Shown: one piece after another, positions 1-7,487 of the stretch
Numbering within the stretch: the stretch's first letter is position 1
Layout of the letters: each line of letters starts with the position of its first letter
Source: Syntrophales bacterium
GTDB taxonomy: Bacteria; Desulfobacterota; Syntrophia; Syntrophales; UBA4778
Assembly (NCBI GenBank): GCA_028712885.1
Contig: JAQTPK010000026.1
Span: 1-39,233, forward strand
DNA length: 39,233 nt
Direction: 5' to 3'
The notes under the pieces: generated by a model
Told to the model about the DNA's origin: nothing
Database searches by the model: none
What the model saw: only the letters and a program-made list of their open reading frames with translations
Made by a program: the position numbers and the translations under genes

Positions 1-45
1 AAAATCCGCTCCTGGGCAAAGGCATAAATATTCGGATTGCGGCGT

Positions 46-110
46 CAGGCGTGTCACAATTGCCCGGATGCAAGGGAAACGCGGCAGATGGTTGATTTGT
101 GACACGCCTG
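46..110. repeat. 14-bp perfect inverted repeat after the pilB-like stop codon
   Basis: The arm caggcgtgtcacaa (46-59) is the exact reverse complement of 97-110, with 37 bases between. The right arm touches the stop codon of the secretion ATPase at 111, so on the minus strand it is the first thing transcribed after the gene. It could be the operon's terminator stem or a regulator binding site, because each arm contains the small dyad gtgtcac. There is no clear T-tract, so intrinsic termination is not certain. Confidence 0.55.
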
Positions 111-2420
111 TCACCGCATGCTGACGCTCAATACCTGCTTAAAATCAGTGTACCCGCCCAGGACCTTCCGGATTCCGTCCTGCAGCAGGGTCCGCATACC
201 TTCCTCAACGGCCGCTTCCCTGATCGCCTCCACCGGCTCGCGCCGCGCCACCAGCGTTTTGATCCGCTCCGACGCGACAAGGAGCTCGTGAATCCCCATC
301 CGGCCGCGGAAGCCGGTATTGTCGCACTCGCTGCAGCCGCGGGGCCGGTATAAACGGAAATCCCCTTGACCAGCGGCATTCAGTTCGGAGGAGAGGTGCT
401 CTCCGTAATGGTGGATCAGCCCTTCAATTTCTTCCGGCGGAGGAGAGTAGGGCTCCCGGCACTTTTTACACAGCATCCTGACCAGGCGCTGGGCGAGGAT
501 GCCGAGGAGCGAATCGGCGAAATTGAAAGGATCGATTCCCATATCGAGGAGCCTTATTATCGTTTCCGGCGCGCTGTTCGTGTGAAGAGTGCTGAAGACG
601 AGATGGCCGGTAAGGGAAGCCTCCACGCCGATTTTCGCCGTCTCGAAATCCCTCATCTCGCCCACCATGATCACGTCCGGGTCGGACCGGAGAAAAGCGC
701 GCATGGCGTGGCTGAAGTCGTATCCGATCTTCGGGTTGATCTGGACCTGCCGCAGTCCTTCCTGGGTTATTTCCACCGGGTCTTCGGCGGTCCAGATCTT
801 CATGTCCGGGGTATTGATGTGGCGCAGGGCGGCGTGGAGCGTCGTGGTCTTCCCCGACCCCGTGGGACCTACGACCAGCACGATACCGTACGGCTTGGCC
901 AGTATCTTGAGGAACTCATCGCTGTTCCTGGGAGAAAGCCCCATCTGCTCGAGGGGCATCGTCTCCCCCTTGGCCAGGATGCGCAGGACGACGTCTTCGA
1001 CGGACCCTTGGGTGGGAAGGGTCGCCACCCGGAGCTCCATCTCCTCCCCGCCCGTTTTCCTGAACCGGATCTTTCCGTCCTGAGGCAGGCGGCGTTCCGT
1101 TATGTCCAGGTTGGACATTATTTTCAAGCGCGAGACGATGGCGGCGCGGTAACTGAAGGGGACGCTCTGGTAGTGCACGCATTCCCCGTCGATCCGGAAC
1201 CTGACGTCCACCGATTTTTTCCTGATGCTGGGCTCTATATGGATATCGGAAGCCCGCCGCGACGCAGCGTCGATGATGATTTTATTGACGAGCTGCATGA
1301 TGACGCTGTCCGACTCCGATACGAGGTCTTCTTCCTCGTCTTCATCTTCCGGGGAGAGGCCGAGCCGGCCGAGCATCTCGGAAATGGACTTCCCGCCCTG
1401 GACGTCGCGGTAGAACCAGTCGATGTATTTCAGGATGTCGTCTTTCAGCGCCACGCAATATTCGACGGCGGCGGTCTTCAGGAGACCCTGGATGGTATCC
1501 TTCTTCAGGATGTCCCCCGGGTCATCCACAAGGACCCTGATCTTCCCCCCCGCTTTCTCCAGGGGGATCCATGATTCGCGGCGGAGGTACTCCGGGCGGA
1601 GCTTATCCAGAATGCCTTCCTGCGGGGACGGACGCTCCTGAAAAGCGACAAACGGACAGCCGTAGAATTGCTCCAGGGACCTGCCGATGTCGGTCCTGGA
1701 TATCCGCATTTTCTTCATCAGATATTCTTCGGGGGATTCGTTCGACCGCTGTGCCTCTTCCAGGGAGTTTTTCAGATCCGTTTCGCTGATCAGGCCCTCT
1801 TCCACAAGCAGACTGAAGCGGGAAGAAAGGCTCCTCGCCGGCTTGAGATGGCTGCCGAAGGCAATGCCCAGCGTCTCCGCGATTTCCTGGAGGAGAACAG
1901 GCTCCTCATCCGCAAACCGGCCGGAGCGCCCCTTTCGGCCTGCTATTTCGATTACGCCCAGAACTTCCCCGTCATGCAGGATCGGAGCGGCCATGACCTG
2001 TTTTGACCGGATGCGGTGTTTCCCGCCGGCGGACAGGTCATGACGGAGCTCCGGATGGATTGCCTCCAGCTCTTTCCTGTCGCCGGCGTCGGCGATATTA
2101 ACCGCGGTCCGCGCCTGCGCGACGAATCCGGGAATGCTTCTGCCGTCGACGGGCAGTCTGATTTCTTCCTCCCTGTTTCCGGCCGGAACGATCGTCCAGA
2201 GGTCGTTTTTCGCGGAATCGCGGATGAAAATCCGCACGGACTCCGCTTCGAAAAGTCGGAGTACGGGCGCCCTGGCCTGGAGAAGAATCTGTCTGATTCC
2301 GCGGGCCGCCTGGATGGAATCGGTGACGTTCTGCAGCGCTTTCTGCAGGCGCAGGATTTCCTGGAAATCGTCGATCTGTTCTTCCTGTTTCCGCGAATTC
2401 ACGACAAGCGCCTTCGTCAC
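111..2420 (-). CDS. GAF domain-containing PilB/GspE-type secretion ATPase
   Basis: 769 aa cytoplasmic hexameric motor ATPase of the type IV pilus assembly/type II secretion family. An N-terminal GAF-like sensor region spans about residues 20-190, followed by a GspE N-terminal domain (about 200-340) and the ATPase core. Seen directly: Walker A GPTGSGKTT (518-526), Asp box TAEDPVE (544-550), Walker B DPDVIMVGEMRD (580-591), His box STLHTN (610-615), and a C-terminal CxxC pair (651-654 and 696-699), the zinc-binding element typical of GspE/PilB. Family knowledge: it powers assembly of pilin-like fibres. It is the last gene of the MglA/roadblock operon; no PilC or pilin gene is in the window. The start is a GTG with a weak ribosome site. 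The frame stays open upstream but offers no better start. The GAF domain is unusual and suggests ligand-controlled motor activity. Confidence 0.93.
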   Translation of the reverse strand: MTKALVVNSRKQEEQIDDFQEILRLQKALQNVTDSIQAARGIRQILLQARAPVLRLFEAESVRIFIRDSAKNDLWTIVPAGNREEEIRLPVDGRSIPGFVAQARTAVNIADAGDRKELEAIHPELRHDLSAGGKHRIRSKQVMAAPILHDGEVLGVIEIAGRKGRSGRFADEEPVLLQEIAETLGIAFGSHLKPARSLSSRFSLLVEEGLISETDLKNSLEEAQRSNESPEEYLMKKMRISRTDIGRSLEQFYGCPFVAFQERPSPQEGILDKLRPEYLRRESWIPLEKAGGKIRVLVDDPGDILKKDTIQGLLKTAAVEYCVALKDDILKYIDWFYRDVQGGKSISEMLGRLGLSPEDEDEEEDLVSESDSVIMQLVNKIIIDAASRRASDIHIEPSIRKKSVDVRFRIDGECVHYQSVPFSYRAAIVSRLKIMSNLDITERRLPQDGKIRFRKTGGEEMELRVATLPTQGSVEDVVLRILAKGETMPLEQMGLSPRNSDEFLKILAKPYGIVLVVGPTGSGKTTTLHAALRHINTPDMKIWTAEDPVEITQEGLRQVQINPKIGYDFSHAMRAFLRSDPDVIMVGEMRDFETAKIGVEASLTGHLVFSTLHTNSAPETIIRLLDMGIDPFNFADSLLGILAQRLVRMLCKKCREPYSPPPEEIEGLIHHYGEHLSSELNAAGQGDFRLYRPRGCSECDNTGFRGRMGIHELLVASERIKTLVARREPVEAIREAAVEEGMRTLLQDGIRKVLGGYTDFKQVLSVSMR

Positions 2421-2506
2421 CGCATTTGTGCTTAAGAGGGCGGGTTCTGGGGAGGGATCTCCGCCGGGCGGACGAAGCCGCCCGCTTCCGGACGGCTCCG
2501 GGATCG

Positions 2507-3346
2507 TCAGGGAGAGGTTTTTTCGGCGCTCACCGGCATGACCGCGGCGGATTCCACGCCCTCCGGCTCCCGGATAAAGACGATCATGAAGGGTACGCGG
2601 CCCTCCGGCGGTATGCCGGTTGCGGCGCCTGCGGAGGGGTTGGACAGCGCGGCCCGGATATCTTCCTCGCCCATGCTTCCCAGCTGTTCCTGGGAGACAA
2701 TGTTTCCGCAGGCTGAGACACGGGCGGATACCGTCTCACCGCGGACGTTGTAAAGAACTCCCATGACCCTTATTTTAGAAAGCGGAGAGGAACCGGTATT
2801 TACGGCATTGCCCTCTATCGTCCTGATCGTCCCCAAAGCAGGATTATGTATCAGGTGCTGCCGGAGATCGGTCAATCTGACCTGCCCGGCGATGTCGTCG
2901 CGCTGAGCGCTGCCCTCCGGGAGGAACGGGTCGAGAAGGGACGTGTTCGCCGCAAGCCAGTCAAAGGACCTGTGGCCCGCTTCCGGATCCATCCATAAAT
3001 AGCCCTGGGCGAAGACGGCCAGGGCAAAAATCAGGACTCCCGCCGCTTTCAGGCCGTTACGGGCGAAGATGCCGGCGCTGCTCCGGGGATGCCGCCCGGC
3101 GGAGGGCTTGGGTTTGTCCTTGTCTTTGTCCTCTCCGAACGCCTCAGTGACGTAATCCGGAACCGGCGATTCGTTTTCCTCCCCCTCGGACCTGCGGCCA
3201 GCGGCAGGCTGTTCCTCGGCGGCCGCAGCGGCCGGCGCCTTTTTCTGCGCTTCGGGAGCCTGACCCGCGCCGGTGTACCTCGACAGAAAGATTTCGAGCT
3301 CCTCTTTTTCCCGGACCAGATCGATTTCTTCAACAGGTGTATTCAT
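2507..3346 (-). CDS. DUF3426-type membrane-anchored protein
   Basis: 279 aa. About 90 acidic, Ala/Pro-rich residues precede one transmembrane helix (about 100-117, GVLIFALAVFAQGYLWM). The extracytoplasmic C-terminal part (about 170-270) matches the DUF3426 pattern: EGNAVNTGSSPL, a VxxxLYNVRGE strand and a final PFMIVF strand. DUF3426 proteins normally carry an MJ0042-type zinc finger at their own N-terminus. Here that finger is encoded by the upstream gene, which overlaps this one by 4 bases (ATGA-type coupling). The function is unknown; in related bacteria such proteins often sit near pilus or cell-envelope genes. It ends about 85 bp before the ATPase start. Confidence 0.75.
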   Translation of the reverse strand: MNTPVEEIDLVREKEELEIFLSRYTGAGQAPEAQKKAPAAAAAEEQPAAGRRSEGEENESPVPDYVTEAFGEDKDKDKPKPSAGRHPRSSAGIFARNGLKAAGVLIFALAVFAQGYLWMDPEAGHRSFDWLAANTSLLDPFLPEGSAQRDDIAGQVRLTDLRQHLIHNPALGTIRTIEGNAVNTGSSPLSKIRVMGVLYNVRGETVSARVSACGNIVSQEQLGSMGEEDIRAALSNPSAGAATGIPPEGRVPFMIVFIREPEGVESAAVMPVSAEKTSP

Positions 3347-3525
3347 GGCGCAGCCTTGTCTTCAATTTCCTCTCTGAGGTCGTGTACCGCCGCCGGAAAA
3401 GATGCCTCAATGGCATCTCCGCAGGTGCCGCAGGTGAACACGATAAAAAGCGTGATCACGCTTGTCTCGATCGGCCCCAATTCGACGACGTACCGTTCTC
3501 CGCACTCTTCGCAGAATATGATCAT
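3343..3525 (-). CDS. MJ0042-like zinc-ribbon peptide
   Basis: 60 aa. Two CxxC knuckles, CEEC (residues 5-8) and CGTC (32-35), form a zinc ribbon resembling the MJ0042/PJ family finger, followed by a short acidic helix. It overlaps the upstream unknown gene and the downstream DUF3426 gene by 4 bases each, so translation of all three is coupled. It is best read as the detached finger of the DUF3426 protein. It may bind nucleic acid or, more likely, act as a partner module; the role is inferred. Confidence 0.72.
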   Translation of the reverse strand: MIIFCEECGERYVVELGPIETSVITLFIVFTCGTCGDAIEASFPAAVHDLREEIEDKAAP

Positions 3526-4493
3526 TTACGGACATTCAATTCCCCGCGCAGGGATTCCATTTCCTCTCTGAGGGTCTTCTTCATATCCGCCACGGCGTAA
3601 GCAATAGCCTCATGAGGAGTCATGCCCCTGATTGCGGCCAGGATTTCCTCCATTCCCGCGGCGTATTCCTTTGCCGGAGGAAGCGCGGCTGCGGGCTTAT
3701 CTTCCGAATCGGCGGCGGGGAGGTGTTCCCCGGCGCCCTCGGCTTTTTCGTCCGATGCCGGCGCGGGCGCGGCGGCGTCATGCCGCGGCTCCGCCGCAGC
3801 GCCGGCTCTGTTCGCCTTTTCCCCACCTTTGTCCAGATCGATCCCGTCCGCCCACTCCCTGTATTTGCGTATGCATTCAAGGAAAATGGAGCGCCTTTCC
3901 GCCACGGTCATGTCGAGCGAAAGCAAGATGCGCTCGAGGTCGTCATATGCGGACATGAGCAGGAGCACCGACCCGGGGTCGGCTTCCGTGCCCCTTACCC
4001 GGACGTACCGTCCCAGGAAACGAAGAATCCGGAGAAAGCCGAGGACGACCTGATCGTTGGAAAAGGTCCCGTCCAGCCTGACCAGCTCCTCGTCGAACTT
4101 CGACAGGATGGAATCATCTATTTCCCATTCCAGGGACAGGATAATGCTTTTCAGATCCTTGAGCGGCGAAACGGGGGCGGGACGGGACGGCGTCAATGCC
4201 CCGAATATTTTTTCGAAGCGATCCTCTTTTCCCCCCCTCTCATCGGCAGCCTCCTGGAGCACGTCGGCATTCCGGTCCGGACCGGCGGTTTCCGTAACAG
4301 GGGAACCGCCTTTTTCAGCAAAGCCGGCTACCCGGTCCTCCTTCCCGCCGCCCGCATCGTCGTTCCCGGCATTCCCGGCGGCAATTTTGATTTCAGCGGG
4401 TTTCGGGGCGGCGCGTCCCGCTTCTTCCCCGAACAGGGCGTTAAGGCGGTTTTCGATTTCACGAACGAAAGGGGATTCTTTATTGGTTTCCAT
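3522..4493 (-). CDS. Uncharacterised protein of the MglA operon
   Basis: 323 aa, family not recognised. It starts with a short helix (SPFVREIENRLNALFG), then a low-complexity Ala/Gly/Glu linker (about 28-100). A compact, probably helical domain of about 130 residues follows (LKDLKSIILSLEWEIDD to RKYREWADGI), then a second Ala/Pro-rich linker and a C-terminal helical tail (ILAAIRGMTPHEAIAYAV, then MKKTLREEMESLRGE). There is no signal peptide or membrane segment. The start lies 3 bases after the mglA stop, with AGGTGA formed by the mglA stop region as ribosome site. The layout of helical modules on flexible linkers suggests a scaffold or adaptor between the GTPase switch and the motor; this is inferred from position only. 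Confidence 0.75.
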   Translation of the reverse strand: METNKESPFVREIENRLNALFGEEAGRAAPKPAEIKIAAGNAGNDDAGGGKEDRVAGFAEKGGSPVTETAGPDRNADVLQEAADERGGKEDRFEKIFGALTPSRPAPVSPLKDLKSIILSLEWEIDDSILSKFDEELVRLDGTFSNDQVVLGFLRILRFLGRYVRVRGTEADPGSVLLLMSAYDDLERILLSLDMTVAERRSIFLECIRKYREWADGIDLDKGGEKANRAGAAAEPRHDAAAPAPASDEKAEGAGEHLPAADSEDKPAAALPPAKEYAAGMEEILAAIRGMTPHEAIAYAVADMKKTLREEMESLRGELNVRK

Positions 4494-4496
4494 TTT

Positions 4497-5102
4497 TCAC
4501 CTGAGCTCTTCCTCCAGCGCGGCCATTGTGGATGAGACTATTTTTTTCAGAGTAGGGACGATGTTGAGTCCCTCGACGGCGCTGGCTTCAAAGAAGGGGG
4601 CCTTCAGGCGCCTGTTCAGATCCTCCTCGAGGGTTTCCAATTCCAGAACTTCCGTTCCCTGCTGCGCCAGATCCCTCTTGTTGTACTGCATGACCAGCGG
4701 GATGCTGCAGATATCCCTGCCGTACAGGGCGAGGTTCTCCTGGAGGTTTTCCAGGGAGTTCACATTCGAGGCCCGCCGGTCCGAGGCAGAGTCGGCGACG
4801 AATACGAGTCCGTCGACCCCTTTCAGGACGAGGCGCCGCGTCGAGTTGTACTTGACCTGCCCCGGGACGGTGTACAACTGGATCTTGACGTCGTATTCGT
4901 TGATCTTGCCCATATCGAACGGGAAGAAATCGAAGAAAAGGGTCCGGTCGCCGTCCGTCTTCACGGAAACCATCTCCGACTGGACCTGGCCCCGGCACTG
5001 GCTGAAAATGTATTCCAGGTTGGTCGTTTTGCCGCATCTTCCCGGGCCGTAATATACTATCTTGGCCTGGATGATTTTTTCCTTCAGATTGATGAACGCC
5101 AA
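4497..5102 (-). CDS. mglA: MglA-family Ras-like GTPase
   Basis: 201 aa, the usual size for MglA. Seen: P-loop GPGRCGKTTN (19-28), switch II TVPGQV (78-83; the PGQ variant is diagnostic for MglA), NKRD (141-144) and SAV (174-176) for guanine recognition. Family knowledge: MglA-GTP marks a cell pole and directs type IV pili and gliding motors, and a roadblock MglB partner acts as its GAP. The gene directly upstream (5125-5532) is a roadblock protein and the operon ends in a PilB-type motor, matching that pairing. It starts 22 bp after the roadblock stop. Confidence 0.93.
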   Translation of the reverse strand: MAFINLKEKIIQAKIVYYGPGRCGKTTNLEYIFSQCRGQVQSEMVSVKTDGDRTLFFDFFPFDMGKINEYDVKIQLYTVPGQVKYNSTRRLVLKGVDGLVFVADSASDRRASNVNSLENLQENLALYGRDICSIPLVMQYNKRDLAQQGTEVLELETLEEDLNRRLKAPFFEASAVEGLNIVPTLKKIVSSTMAALEEELR

Positions 5103-5124
5103 TTCCTGAGTCCTTCTTCCGCCA

Positions 5125-5532
5125 TCAGTTTGCGGGTTTCTTCGCCACCAGGATTCCCAGCAGATCCTTGATCACCTCGGCCACTTTCATCCGGAGGAAC
5201 CCCAGAGAGAGCTGATTGGTGAAAATATTTATCAGGAGAAAATCCCGGTTGACCTTGCTCAGATGAATGTTTTCCGTGCGGCCCTTGTGGAACAGAAGGG
5301 AGAACTCGTCTTCCCCCACGATTTTCGCCATGCTGTTCATCGCGCCGAAGTTGGCCGCCGCGAGCGCCGCCAGCGAGTAGACGTCCCGAATGTCGCTCCC
5401 GTTATTGACGACGGCGATGATATTCCCCGCCGTATCGATCAGCATGGAGCTCTGGGCGCCGATGTCGATCAGGTTTTTCTTCAGGGAGTGGTGTATTCTG
5501 TCCAGTTCTTTCTGTCCCAGCATCAAGTTCAT
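5125..5532 (-). CDS. Roadblock/LC7 protein, MglB-like
   Basis: About 135 aa from the ATG at 5532 (MNLMLGQKELDRI). A TTG 24 bases upstream is possible but less likely. It shows the roadblock fold signature: an N-terminal helix, the strand pair SSMLIDTAGNIIAVV, a helix with LAALAAANFGAMNSMAKIVG, then strands ending LLINIFT and a C-terminal helix. Roadblock dimers bind and regulate small GTPases. Position immediately before mglA makes it the best candidate for the cognate MglB (GAP or exchange-type regulator). It is one of three roadblock genes in this operon and the only one close to the classical MglB pattern. Confidence 0.85.
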   Translation of the reverse strand: MNLMLGQKELDRIHHSLKKNLIDIGAQSSMLIDTAGNIIAVVNNGSDIRDVYSLAALAAANFGAMNSMAKIVGEDEFSLLFHKGRTENIHLSKVNRDFLLINIFTNQLSLGFLRMKVAEVIKDLLGILVAKKPAN

Positions 5533-5557
5533 TGTTCCGGTCCCGCCCTGAAGCAAA

Positions 5558-5740
5558 TCAGGCTTTCCTGTTCAAGATTTCGTTTGCAGCGACCCTGAGC
5601 TTGGCTAGGAGCTCTTCCGAATCCCTGACCGCCAGCGCCTCTTTCAGGGAGATCCCTGTTTTTCCGGCGAGCTCCAGCCTTCCCCGCAGGCCGGCCTGCT
5701 CCGTCACCAGCTCAAATATGTGCGCCATTTTCTCGCCCAT
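5558..5740 (-). CDS. Small helical protein, paralogue of 6720-6914
   Basis: 60 aa from the ATG at 5740 (MGEKMAHIFELVTEQ). The open frame extends upstream to 5854, but similarity to the paralogue begins exactly at this Met, and the extension would overlap the preceding gene, so I take the shorter form. A G-rich stretch precedes the ATG as a weak ribosome site. The paralogues share MGEK..xIFExVTEQxGLxGRLELA and TGIS.KEA. Each follows a roadblock gene of the same subtype, so they form a duplicated two-gene module. The family is not recognised; it may be a dedicated partner of the roadblock protein. Confidence 0.7.
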   Translation of the reverse strand: MGEKMAHIFELVTEQAGLRGRLELAGKTGISLKEALAVRDSEELLAKLRVAANEILNRKA

Positions 5741-5825
5741 CGCTTCCCCCCGGCGAAACGCCCGGAGCCGCCCCGATCCGGCCGTACCGGTATCAGGCGC
5801 GGATTCCGGCTCCGGCGACCGCCTC

Positions 5826-6695
5826 TCAACCTTTTTTTCCTGAAGCAACCGCATCCTCGAAGGATCTGATCATCCCGGGGGCGATCGCGTGGAGGAAAAG
5901 GCCCAGTTTCAGTTTTTCGTTGTTGAAAACAGTGCCCCAGTTATGCCCCTCAAACAGAAGGGAAAAAATCGTCCGGTTCCTCTCGACATCCACCAGATAA
6001 TACCGCACCGACTCCAGGGGGGAGCCGCCCGGGTTTCTCTGCCGGAAGAGGGAATCCAGCTCATGAAAAAGACGCGCCGCTTCCGGATCTGCATTCCAGC
6101 CGGAGAGGACGTTTCCCGCGATGTCCGTGACGGCTGTGCTGACGAGGGCCGGGCCCATATCCTTTTTTAAGGACTCGATGAGCCGCCCGGACCTGGCGGC
6201 GAAGGAGTCCGGGGCTCCTTCGGCGTCCCGCTGTCCGCCCGGGGCGGAATTCACGGGCGCCTCTCCCGCATGGCTGCATGCCGTTTCCTTTTCATCTCCT
6301 CGCCGGGAGCTTTCCAGCAGAAGCAGCATGAGGCTCCGGTCTATCTTATTCACGACGGAGGCCGCGTCCGGCAGGAGGCCCATTGCGAACCGGGGATTTT
6401 TCCAGGACAGCATCTCCATTGCGGCTTCTTCACCGTCCAGATCGCCGCACTCAGCATCGCAGAGCTCGCCCGCGATGAAATAAAAGGCCCCGCCGGCAGG
6501 GCCGCCGGCTCCCTTGTGAACCTCCACAAGACACGTCTGCTGGTCCATGGCTATAACCTGCAGGACACTGCTCAGCGACAGCCCCGCCAGAGGCCAGTGA
6601 TCGGGTTCCTCTTCCGGCCGCTTCGTTTCAGGCCGGGGAGGGCGTTTATCTCCTGCGTTATCGACGATCAATTTGATGGTCTTCGTTGCCTGCAT
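5826..6695 (-). CDS. PATAN/DUF4388-roadblock fusion protein
   Basis: 289 aa. The N-terminal 40-110 region (LAGLSLSSVLQVIAMDQQT, then GAFYFIAGELCDAECG) matches the DUF4388/PATAN pattern found in two-component and GTPase-linked signalling proteins. A low-complexity linker (about 132-170) joins it to a C-terminal roadblock-like domain (about 171-285) that is clearly homologous to the stand-alone protein at 6926-7297: shared LKKDxG.ALVST, the YYLVD/YYLDL strand, GxNWG/DYQWG, KLGLxL and a final FEDAV. The ATG at 6695 has GGAG 11 bases upstream. It is a probable signal-input member of the MglA system, arising by duplication and fusion. Confidence 0.8.
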   Translation of the reverse strand: MQATKTIKLIVDNAGDKRPPRPETKRPEEEPDHWPLAGLSLSSVLQVIAMDQQTCLVEVHKGAGGPAGGAFYFIAGELCDAECGDLDGEEAAMEMLSWKNPRFAMGLLPDAASVVNKIDRSLMLLLLESSRRGDEKETACSHAGEAPVNSAPGGQRDAEGAPDSFAARSGRLIESLKKDMGPALVSTAVTDIAGNVLSGWNADPEAARLFHELDSLFRQRNPGGSPLESVRYYLVDVERNRTIFSLLFEGHNWGTVFNNEKLKLGLFLHAIAPGMIRSFEDAVASGKKG

Positions 6696-6719
6696 GACCC
6701 ACAGCTCCGCCGCCCGCGT

Positions 6720-6914
6720 TTACTTTGATCTGCCGTAATGGCTGTCGTAAATGTCCGTGGCCGCGTATTTGAATTTTTCCACCAACTCCTCCGTATCCTT
6801 GAGCGCCATGGCCTCTTTCATGGAAATACCGGTCCTGCTGGCAAGCTCCAGTCTTCCCTTGAGGCCGGTCTGCTCCGTCACGATCTCGAATATGCGCACA
6901 AGTTTTTCACCCAT
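6720..6914 (-). CDS. Small helical protein, paralogue of 5558-5740
   Basis: 64 aa from the ATG at 6914, which has AAGGAG six bases upstream; a GTG 15 bases earlier (6929) overlaps the upstream stop and is less likely. It shares most of its length with the 60 aa paralogue (MGEKLVRIFEIVTEQTGLKG against MGEKMAHIFELVTEQAGLRG). It is predicted mostly helical, with no cysteine and no membrane segment. It follows its roadblock gene by 11 bp. I do not recognise the family. Confidence 0.8.
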   Translation of the reverse strand: MGEKLVRIFEIVTEQTGLKGRLELASRTGISMKEAMALKDTEELVEKFKYAATDIYDSHYGRSK

Positions 6915-6925
6915 CGGCTTCTCCT

Positions 6926-7297
6926 TCACGCAACGACGGCATCTTCAAAAGCATTTACGATTTTGGGTAAAATGATGTTCAACAGCAGTCCGAGCTTCGC
7001 CTTCTGGGTGTCGATGGCGATCCCCCACTGGTAGTCGCCGAACGGAATGAAAAGGAGCCCCCTGTTCCCGGCCAGATCCAGATAATAGTATTTTCCCAGG
7101 CCGGGATAGCCGTGCGACAGGGCGTTCTGGATCTGAGCCGTCAGCTCGCTGAACAGGGTGGCCGCTCCCGGTTTCGATTGCTCCGTGGCGATCAGCGTCT
7201 GCGCATCGGCCGTGGAAACGATGCTGGACGCGACGAGTCCGTCGCCGAGGTCCTTCTTCAGGACCTCCATGCAGTCATTCAGTTTCTGGATATTCAC
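6926..7297 (-). CDS. Roadblock/LC7-like protein, first gene of the operon
   Basis: 123 aa. The open frame runs up to 7567, but a GTG at 7297 has a strong AAGGAGG ribosome site and coincides with where homology to the roadblock domain of 5826-6695 begins (LNDCMEVLKKDLGDGLVASS). Features: a helix-strand start, central YYLDLAGNRGLLFIPFGDYQWG, and a C-terminal helix ending FEDAVVA. It probably forms homo- or heterodimers with the other roadblock proteins. The CRP/FNR-like palindrome lies about 105-120 bp upstream, so this is the likely promoter-proximal gene. Confidence 0.85.
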   Translation of the reverse strand: MNIQKLNDCMEVLKKDLGDGLVASSIVSTADAQTLIATEQSKPGAATLFSELTAQIQNALSHGYPGLGKYYYLDLAGNRGLLFIPFGDYQWGIAIDTQKAKLGLLLNIILPKIVNAFEDAVVA

Positions 7298-7487
7298 TTT
7301 TCCCTCCTTGGTCCCCCGGGTATTTGCCGGGAGGGAACACCCCTTCCGGGCTGAATTCCGGTGATTACATGAAAAAAGATCGGCATCCGCCGGGGGGATA
7401 ATGTGATCCCGGTCACATAATAAGACAATCGGGCCGGGAAACGGGGAGAAATCGGGAGATATTTCAACGAGGGGACAAAAAAACTGC
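7298..7487. other. 190-bp gene-free leader of the roadblock-mglA-pilB operon
   Basis: No coding signal is seen. On the minus strand it holds the strong Shine-Dalgarno of the first roadblock gene, a possible -10 (TGTAAT, complement of 7364-7369) without a good -35, and the CRP/FNR-like palindrome. Lack of a -35 would fit an activator-dependent promoter; this is inference. Confidence 0.4.
7402..7417. promoter_or_regulatory. CRP/FNR-family operator palindrome
   Basis: TGTGA-N6-TCACA, a perfect match to the CRP consensus half-sites. Symmetry extends outward as taaTGTGA / TCACAtaa with one mismatch further out. It sits upstream of the roadblock-mglA-pilB operon (first start at 7297). Its distance to the possible -10 is about 50 bp, which is not a standard class I or II position, so the exact start site is uncertain. 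Confidence 0.65.

Follow-up and report, generated by a model that had tools for sequence, protein, structure and literature searches.

The MglA/MglB-SgmX-PilB pathway of Myxococcus xanthus (PMC7668184, PMC7519303, PMC11580455) combines MglA, an MglB-type roadblock protein and a PilB-family motor, as does the locus described here. The TPRs of SgmX bind MglA-GTP, and SgmX acts on PilB directly or indirectly (PMC7668184). The TPR module would link MglA-GTP to pilus extension, and TPRs are likewise found on the mgl-linked ATPase in relatives. In Myxococcus the TPRs are carried by SgmX, a protein distinct from the motor, whereas in our systems the ATPase itself contains the TPR (or GAF) module; two further differences are that all genes lie in one operon and that one of them (G7 below) encodes a new family. 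The MglA-TPR hub of Bdellovibrio, in which the TPR protein Bd2492 binds MglA, likewise unites MglA, a TPR protein and pilus-dependent behaviour, but MglB is absent and the TPR gene sits with tamAB, not with an ATPase gene (PMC3983030). In Synechocystis, action on PilB1 has been reported or proposed for PATAN regulators such as the response regulator PixE (PMC7690835); they share a PATAN domain and a PilB-type motor with our locus, but the pathways as described are without MglA, and our PATAN protein is without a receiver domain. In the survey by Wuichet and Sogaard-Andersen (PMC4316618), mglA of groups 1 and 5 likewise lies near roadblock and occasionally PATAN genes, in neighbourhoods that vary widely, and the passages of that survey available to us report no conserved PilB or G7 partner. 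Literature searches, with subscription papers mostly outside their coverage, found no description of an mgl-ATPase gene unit in Desulfobacterota.

The window, i.e., the whole stretch of 39,233 nt analysed here, is one entire contig, C34 of genome G000 (G000:C34:1-39233; assembly of 2.93 Mb, 99% complete). As proposed in the initial annotation, ten minus-strand ORFs run from 111 to about 7297; the intergenic gaps range from -29 to +86 nt, and most ORFs overlap or sit 24 nt or less apart. As the contig does not continue past the window, the apparent end at 111 is set by the contig edge, and the operon may extend further. The features are listed below.

7402..7417, no strand: TGTGA-N6-TCACA palindrome resembling a CRP/FNR-type operator, about 105 nt before G1.
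6926..7297, minus strand: G1, about 123 aa, GTG start preceded by GGAGGG; roadblock-like by inspection alone.
6720..6929, minus strand: G2, small protein, paralogue of G4; comes after the G1-type gene in relatives.
5826..6695, minus strand: G3, 289 aa, DUF4388/PATAN domain (1.5e-10) and G1-type C-terminal domain.
5558..5854, minus strand: G4, small paralogue of G2; true start probably the MGEK methionine near 5740.
5125..5556, minus strand: G5, MglB-like Roadblock/LC7 protein, probable GAP for MglA.
4497..5102, minus strand: G6, MglA small GTPase, the sole MglA in the genome.
3522..4493, minus strand: G7, 323 aa, new conserved family, candidate adaptor.
3343..3525, minus strand: G8, 60 aa, CxxC zinc-ribbon-like, sub-threshold profile match; kept in relatives.
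2507..3346, minus strand: G9, 279 aa, one putative membrane helix by inspection, weak DUF3426.
111..2420, minus strand: G10, GAF-MshEN-T2SSE ATPase of 769 aa; probably a second copy of the type IVa pilus PilB encoded in this genome.
38..118, no strand: inverted repeat adjoining the G10 stop at the contig edge.

The identity of the switch is clear. G6, annotated at the outset as MglA, matches solved MglA at 9e-55 over 1-196 with 44-47% identity, and it carries the P-loop GPGRCGKTTN and the stretch YTVPGQVKYN, which contains the TVPGQ motif. Three roadblock proteins had been proposed as inputs to this switch, and profiles support G5 alone (Robl_LC7 at 4.7e-8; profile match to solved MglB at 1.7e-30). 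The C-terminal part of G3 is a relative of G1 (4e-38), and both look roadblock-like by eye alone; no roadblock match was found for them in Pfam or among PDB sequences, and profile-profile comparison, made with shallow profiles, gave a probability of about 2%, so a roadblock identity is unsupported by the profile-profile and PDB searches. The proposed PATAN domain is present in G3, which is without a receiver domain, whereas the Desulfobacterales versions have one. The two small paralogues were also recognised correctly, with cross-matches between G2 and G4 of 9e-31 to 4e-36. The Pfam domain search found no TPR in the window proteins. Two loci elsewhere show related genes in other settings. In genome G046, which has no MglA match, a response-regulator-like gene, a G1-type gene and a GAF-ATPase gene are clustered (L114:3-3786), suggesting that G1-type proteins accompany the GAF-ATPase. 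Desulfoluna limicola has a second MglA gene, and the gene after it encodes a DUF4388/PATAN protein fused to two cyclic-nucleotide-binding domains (L047:5614-7593).

The gene between the GTPase and the motor encodes G7, a protein that, judged by sequence comparison, is a new conserved family. Its conserved core of about 110 residues (LKxxxLSxDWEIxD...) is found beside mglA in more than 45 loci, and no Pfam or NCBIfam family covers it. An AlphaFold run on the MglA-G7 read-through, with the TGA read as a residue, predicted a five-helix core for G7 with pLDDT above 90, and the MglA part of the fused model matches solved MglA structures; both domains are well folded, and the model (pTM 0.50) has no usable interface. 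The family includes longer versions in other loci and a double-domain version, the latter being a 1232-aa protein after mglA in which a pair of G7 domains is joined to a long tail of acidic, repetitive sequence (L140:10294-13989). Three longer proteins (L142:6386-7762, L147:4978-6492, and L143:6331-8103) end in a domain that looks CheW-like, with a weak Pfam match in L143 only. In L144 and L145, mglA adjoins the ATPase gene without G7, so G7 is not universal. Downstream of G7, the initial annotation placed a zinc ribbon plus DUF3426 protein; the two features, both matched weakly, belong to two genes, G8 and G9, that overlap by 4 nt, and the DUF3426 score of G9 is 22.7 bits against a cut-off of 27.7.

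A gene-order search for mglA near a GAF-GspE/PilB gene had been suggested as a check on the proposed unit. The results show that the order is kept in relatives and that the unit is present in many families, which supports a single genetic unit of switch and motor with the gene for the 323-aa protein between them. The comparison covered 60 relatives beside the window genome, drawn from its own family and order, and gene maps of 80 named loci fetched via MglA; the closest named MglA matches are Smithella/Syntrophaceae-like MAGs. Smithellaceae-like contigs retain PATAN-G1-G2-G5-MglA-G7-G8-G9, with the GAF-ATPase gene about 3.5 kb upstream. This gene is convergent and immediately past G9 in L038, and immediately downstream on the same strand in genomes G005 and G024, like in the window. 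Desulfobacterales have a longer run that includes G5-MglA-G7, winged-helix-like, zinc ribbon-HAMP, REC-PATAN and roadblock-like proteins, and the ATPase. The gene maps show the four-gene core mglB-mglA-G7-ATPase adjacent in many families; in the examples examined outside Syntrophales, the linked ATPase is TPR-MshEN-T2SSE, the TPR being replaced by GAF here. These TPR versions, which the initial annotation did not anticipate, offer a concrete mechanism, given that SgmX binds MglA by the same fold.

Among 394 genomes sampled evenly across the phylum, MglA (threshold 1e-40) was found in 216 and the ATPase (threshold 1e-150) in 121. Linkage was compared for the best-scoring 106 MglA genes; scoring was limited to the top two ATPase candidates in each genome, which makes the linkage a lower bound. 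An ATPase of the same subfamily lies 20 kb or less from mglA in at least 39 of the 53 genomes with both listed genes, far above the chance linkage, which we estimate at about 1% per genome. The distance is mostly 2-2.6 kb among linked pairs, all 40 of which are on one strand, with the ATPase downstream in 39. Among the same 106 MglA genes, 18 have the ATPase elsewhere in the genome and 48 are in genomes without a strong ATPase match. Within Syntrophales, the GAF-ATPase is found in 55 of the 60 genomes and MglA in 4, indicating that MglA is not needed for the GAF-ATPase. The switch, its likely off-switch partner, G7 and the probable pilus-extension motor form a unit retained across much of the phylum, which suggests that MglA acts on the motor itself. 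In Desulfobacterota, one locus encodes the switch, the candidate adaptor family and a motor that bears fused TPR repeats, so the GTPase-to-motor step is testable with three or four purified proteins.

The motor of the unit, G10, was rightly described as a GAF-bearing PilB/GspE ATPase: Pfam finds GAF, MshEN and T2SSE domains, and the Walker A, Walker B, His box and cysteine pairs are all intact. Its full-length relatives score 556-1045 bits against it, compared with 314 for the C6 ATPase and 370 for the C15 ATPase of the window genome. The best-scoring equivalog for G10 is NCBIfam PilB (TIGR02538), at 524 bits against a cut-off of 675.65, followed by the GspE equivalog at 494 bits, which is also under its cut-off. 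With both scores below threshold, the ATPase might belong to a different machine within the type II secretion/type IV pilus class, MglA then controlling secretion; we consider this very improbable because the GspE-type and C6-type ATPases have T2SSF partners of their own, and because the closed genome G302 has PilT, PilC and PilM and no other assembly ATPase. G302 encodes one assembly-type T2SSE, which is mgl-linked, together with two PilT-like ATPases, one PilC and one PilM, and closed genomes like this one offer no candidate for the extension motor besides the linked ATPase. In the closed genome G036, which is without MglA, the other assembly ATPases have T2SSF neighbours, and the GAF-ATPase and one orphan PilC remain. 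Genomes G000, G093 and G339 repeat this pattern, each of the other assembly ATPases pairing with its own T2SSF gene or a T2SS cluster. By elimination in G302, G036, G093 and G339, the G10 family is probably the type IVa pilus PilB, the extension motor. The same argument probably holds for the window genome, where an orphan PilC is on C68, pilMNOPQ (pilM, pilN, secretin) on C42, and PilT on C31. The C6 ATPase was considered as the canonical PilB and rejected, since it pairs with its own T2SSF and PilM-like genes, pilMNOPQ and the orphan PilC being elsewhere.

Phylogenetic analysis shows that switch and motor have different histories. In ten Syntrophales operons the MglA+MglB cores form a single clade (support 100/99), whereas the operon-linked ATPases in Syntrophales are not one clade, a single origin being rejected (AU p = 3.9e-13) for a group that was defined after viewing a first tree. 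The Smithella-type operon ATPases form a single clade, the window ATPase clusters (100/100) with solitary copies from the same family, and those of G005 and G024 cluster with solitary copies from their relatives. Two histories would account for this: several separate duplications of the resident pilB into the operon, or gene conversion that has kept the copies similar. Both point to a need for the motor next to MglA to match the pilus machine of its host. Repeated capture of the host PilB beside one conserved mglAB core, which the initial annotation did not foresee, would be evolutionary evidence for a functional link.

The window genome also holds a second, solitary GAF-ATPase on C22, which could be its working motor. 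G10 would then be a signalling PilB copy that reports pilus state or c-di-GMP, a role consistent with its longer branch (0.46, compared with 0.13-0.29 in the solitary sisters) and with the reported role of M. xanthus PilB in signalling for exopolysaccharide (PMC5544727). We regard this as rather improbable: the catalytic motifs are intact, the linked ATPase is the only assembly ATPase in G302, and the c-di-GMP motif is degenerate. The MshEN receptor for c-di-GMP consists of two RLGxx(L/V/I)(L/V/I)xxG...Q motifs (PMC5013675); G10 has RFS in the first and SPE in the second, the second is without the conserved G, and the score against the NCBIfam model of the motif is 23 bits (cut-off 38). The solitary Syntrophales GAF-ATPase gene is repeatedly convergent with a mutS-like gene and apart from other pilus genes (L131, L135, L136, and L096).

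Upstream of G1, the near-perfect palindrome of the initial annotation is an exact site, TGTGATCCCGGTCACA, at 7402-7417. In the window alone it is weak evidence, with 0.39 such sites expected when up to 1 mismatch is allowed. The window genome has 8 exact copies of TGTGA-N6-TCACA, compared with 0 for the reversed control and about 2 expected from base composition by our own estimate. Three of the 8 precede the mgl operon, pilMNOPQ and, with one gene between, a pilD-minor pilin run encoding N-methylated minor pilins; the last of these may instead serve a divergent gene. The pilM site, TGTGATCCCCGTCACA, lies 313 nt upstream of pilM and is nearly identical to the operon site, so the proposed CRP/FNR-like site is probably functional. 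The exact site before the operon is retained in two relatives, G005 and G024, and is missing from the Smithella-type operons examined. Both relatives encode a CRP-family protein 1-1.7 kb past the ATPase (L199:4366-5073), with a recognition helix (RETVSR) that we take to resemble that of CRP. Between the linked ATPase and this gene, both encode a protein whose start resembles a J-domain and whose repeats look MshEN-like by eye (L199:3571-4350 and L196:3455-4234). A CRP-family regulator likely co-expresses the mgl operon with other pilus genes, as judged from these sites.

Joint expression alone could favour linkage, given that the CRP-like site is common to other pilus loci; a parallel rise of mglA and the pil genes is reported for a relative, Syntrophobacterium fumaroxidans (PMC10787695). 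On this account, the polarity genes and the pilB copy share a promoter, and MglA uses separate effectors and never touches the motor. We consider it unlikely, because the order is fixed and the linkage involves PilB and G7 specifically rather than pilC, pilM or pilT, because the mglB-mglA-G7-ATPase core persists through rearrangement, and because the TPR repeats are on the ATPase itself.

The reading that we favour, with moderate confidence, is a type IVa pilus control operon in which MglA-GTP acts on a dedicated PilB copy via G7 and/or the N-terminal module. In the scheme that we infer, including its protein contacts (MglA-G7-PilB), GAP activity, transcript continuity, regulation and phenotype, MglA would be the switch and G5 its MglB-type partner, with G3 (PATAN) and the G1/G2-type proteins as probable signal inputs. 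G7 would be the adaptor, G8/G9 a membrane-side partner, and G10 the dedicated copy of the host PilB extension motor. MglA-GTP would most likely recruit, activate or position this copy of PilB by way of G7, of the N-terminal module (a TPR in most lineages, a GAF in the window) or of both, and GTP hydrolysis stimulated by MglB would end the signal. Precedents for the scheme are the binding of MglA by the TPR proteins SgmX and Bd2492 and the action of PATAN regulators on PilB1, and the parallel rise of mglA and the pil genes in S. fumaroxidans also fits it. The motor would use the shared pilus base, namely PilC (C68), PilMNOPQ (C42) and PilT (C31), and the CRP-like site would tie expression of the operon to the remaining pilus genes. 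More tentatively, MglA-GTP may gate PilB directly via the fused N-terminal module and G7, bypassing the SgmX route, in a portable operon that, upon arrival in a new lineage, adopts the host PilB, places a compatible motor under GTPase control and replaces the c-di-GMP control lost with the degenerate MshEN motif; we see this as possible and place less confidence in it. Such an operon is relevant to pilus control in syntrophs on meeting methanogen partners.

At its far end, the operon was said to stop at a 14-bp inverted repeat. A repeat is present, but its arms (38-59 and 97-118) are 22 nt long and 91% complementary. It is without a T run, and its role as a terminator is uncertain; the assembly may have broken here because the repeat is a dispersed one. 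A promoter scan gave no signal beyond chance level, and terminator-like sites number 17 compared with 8.7 in shuffles, the majority on the opposite strand; these sites lie within coding DNA or at gene ends. Each arm of the 38-118 repeat holds GTGACA-N4-TGTCAC or a near copy.
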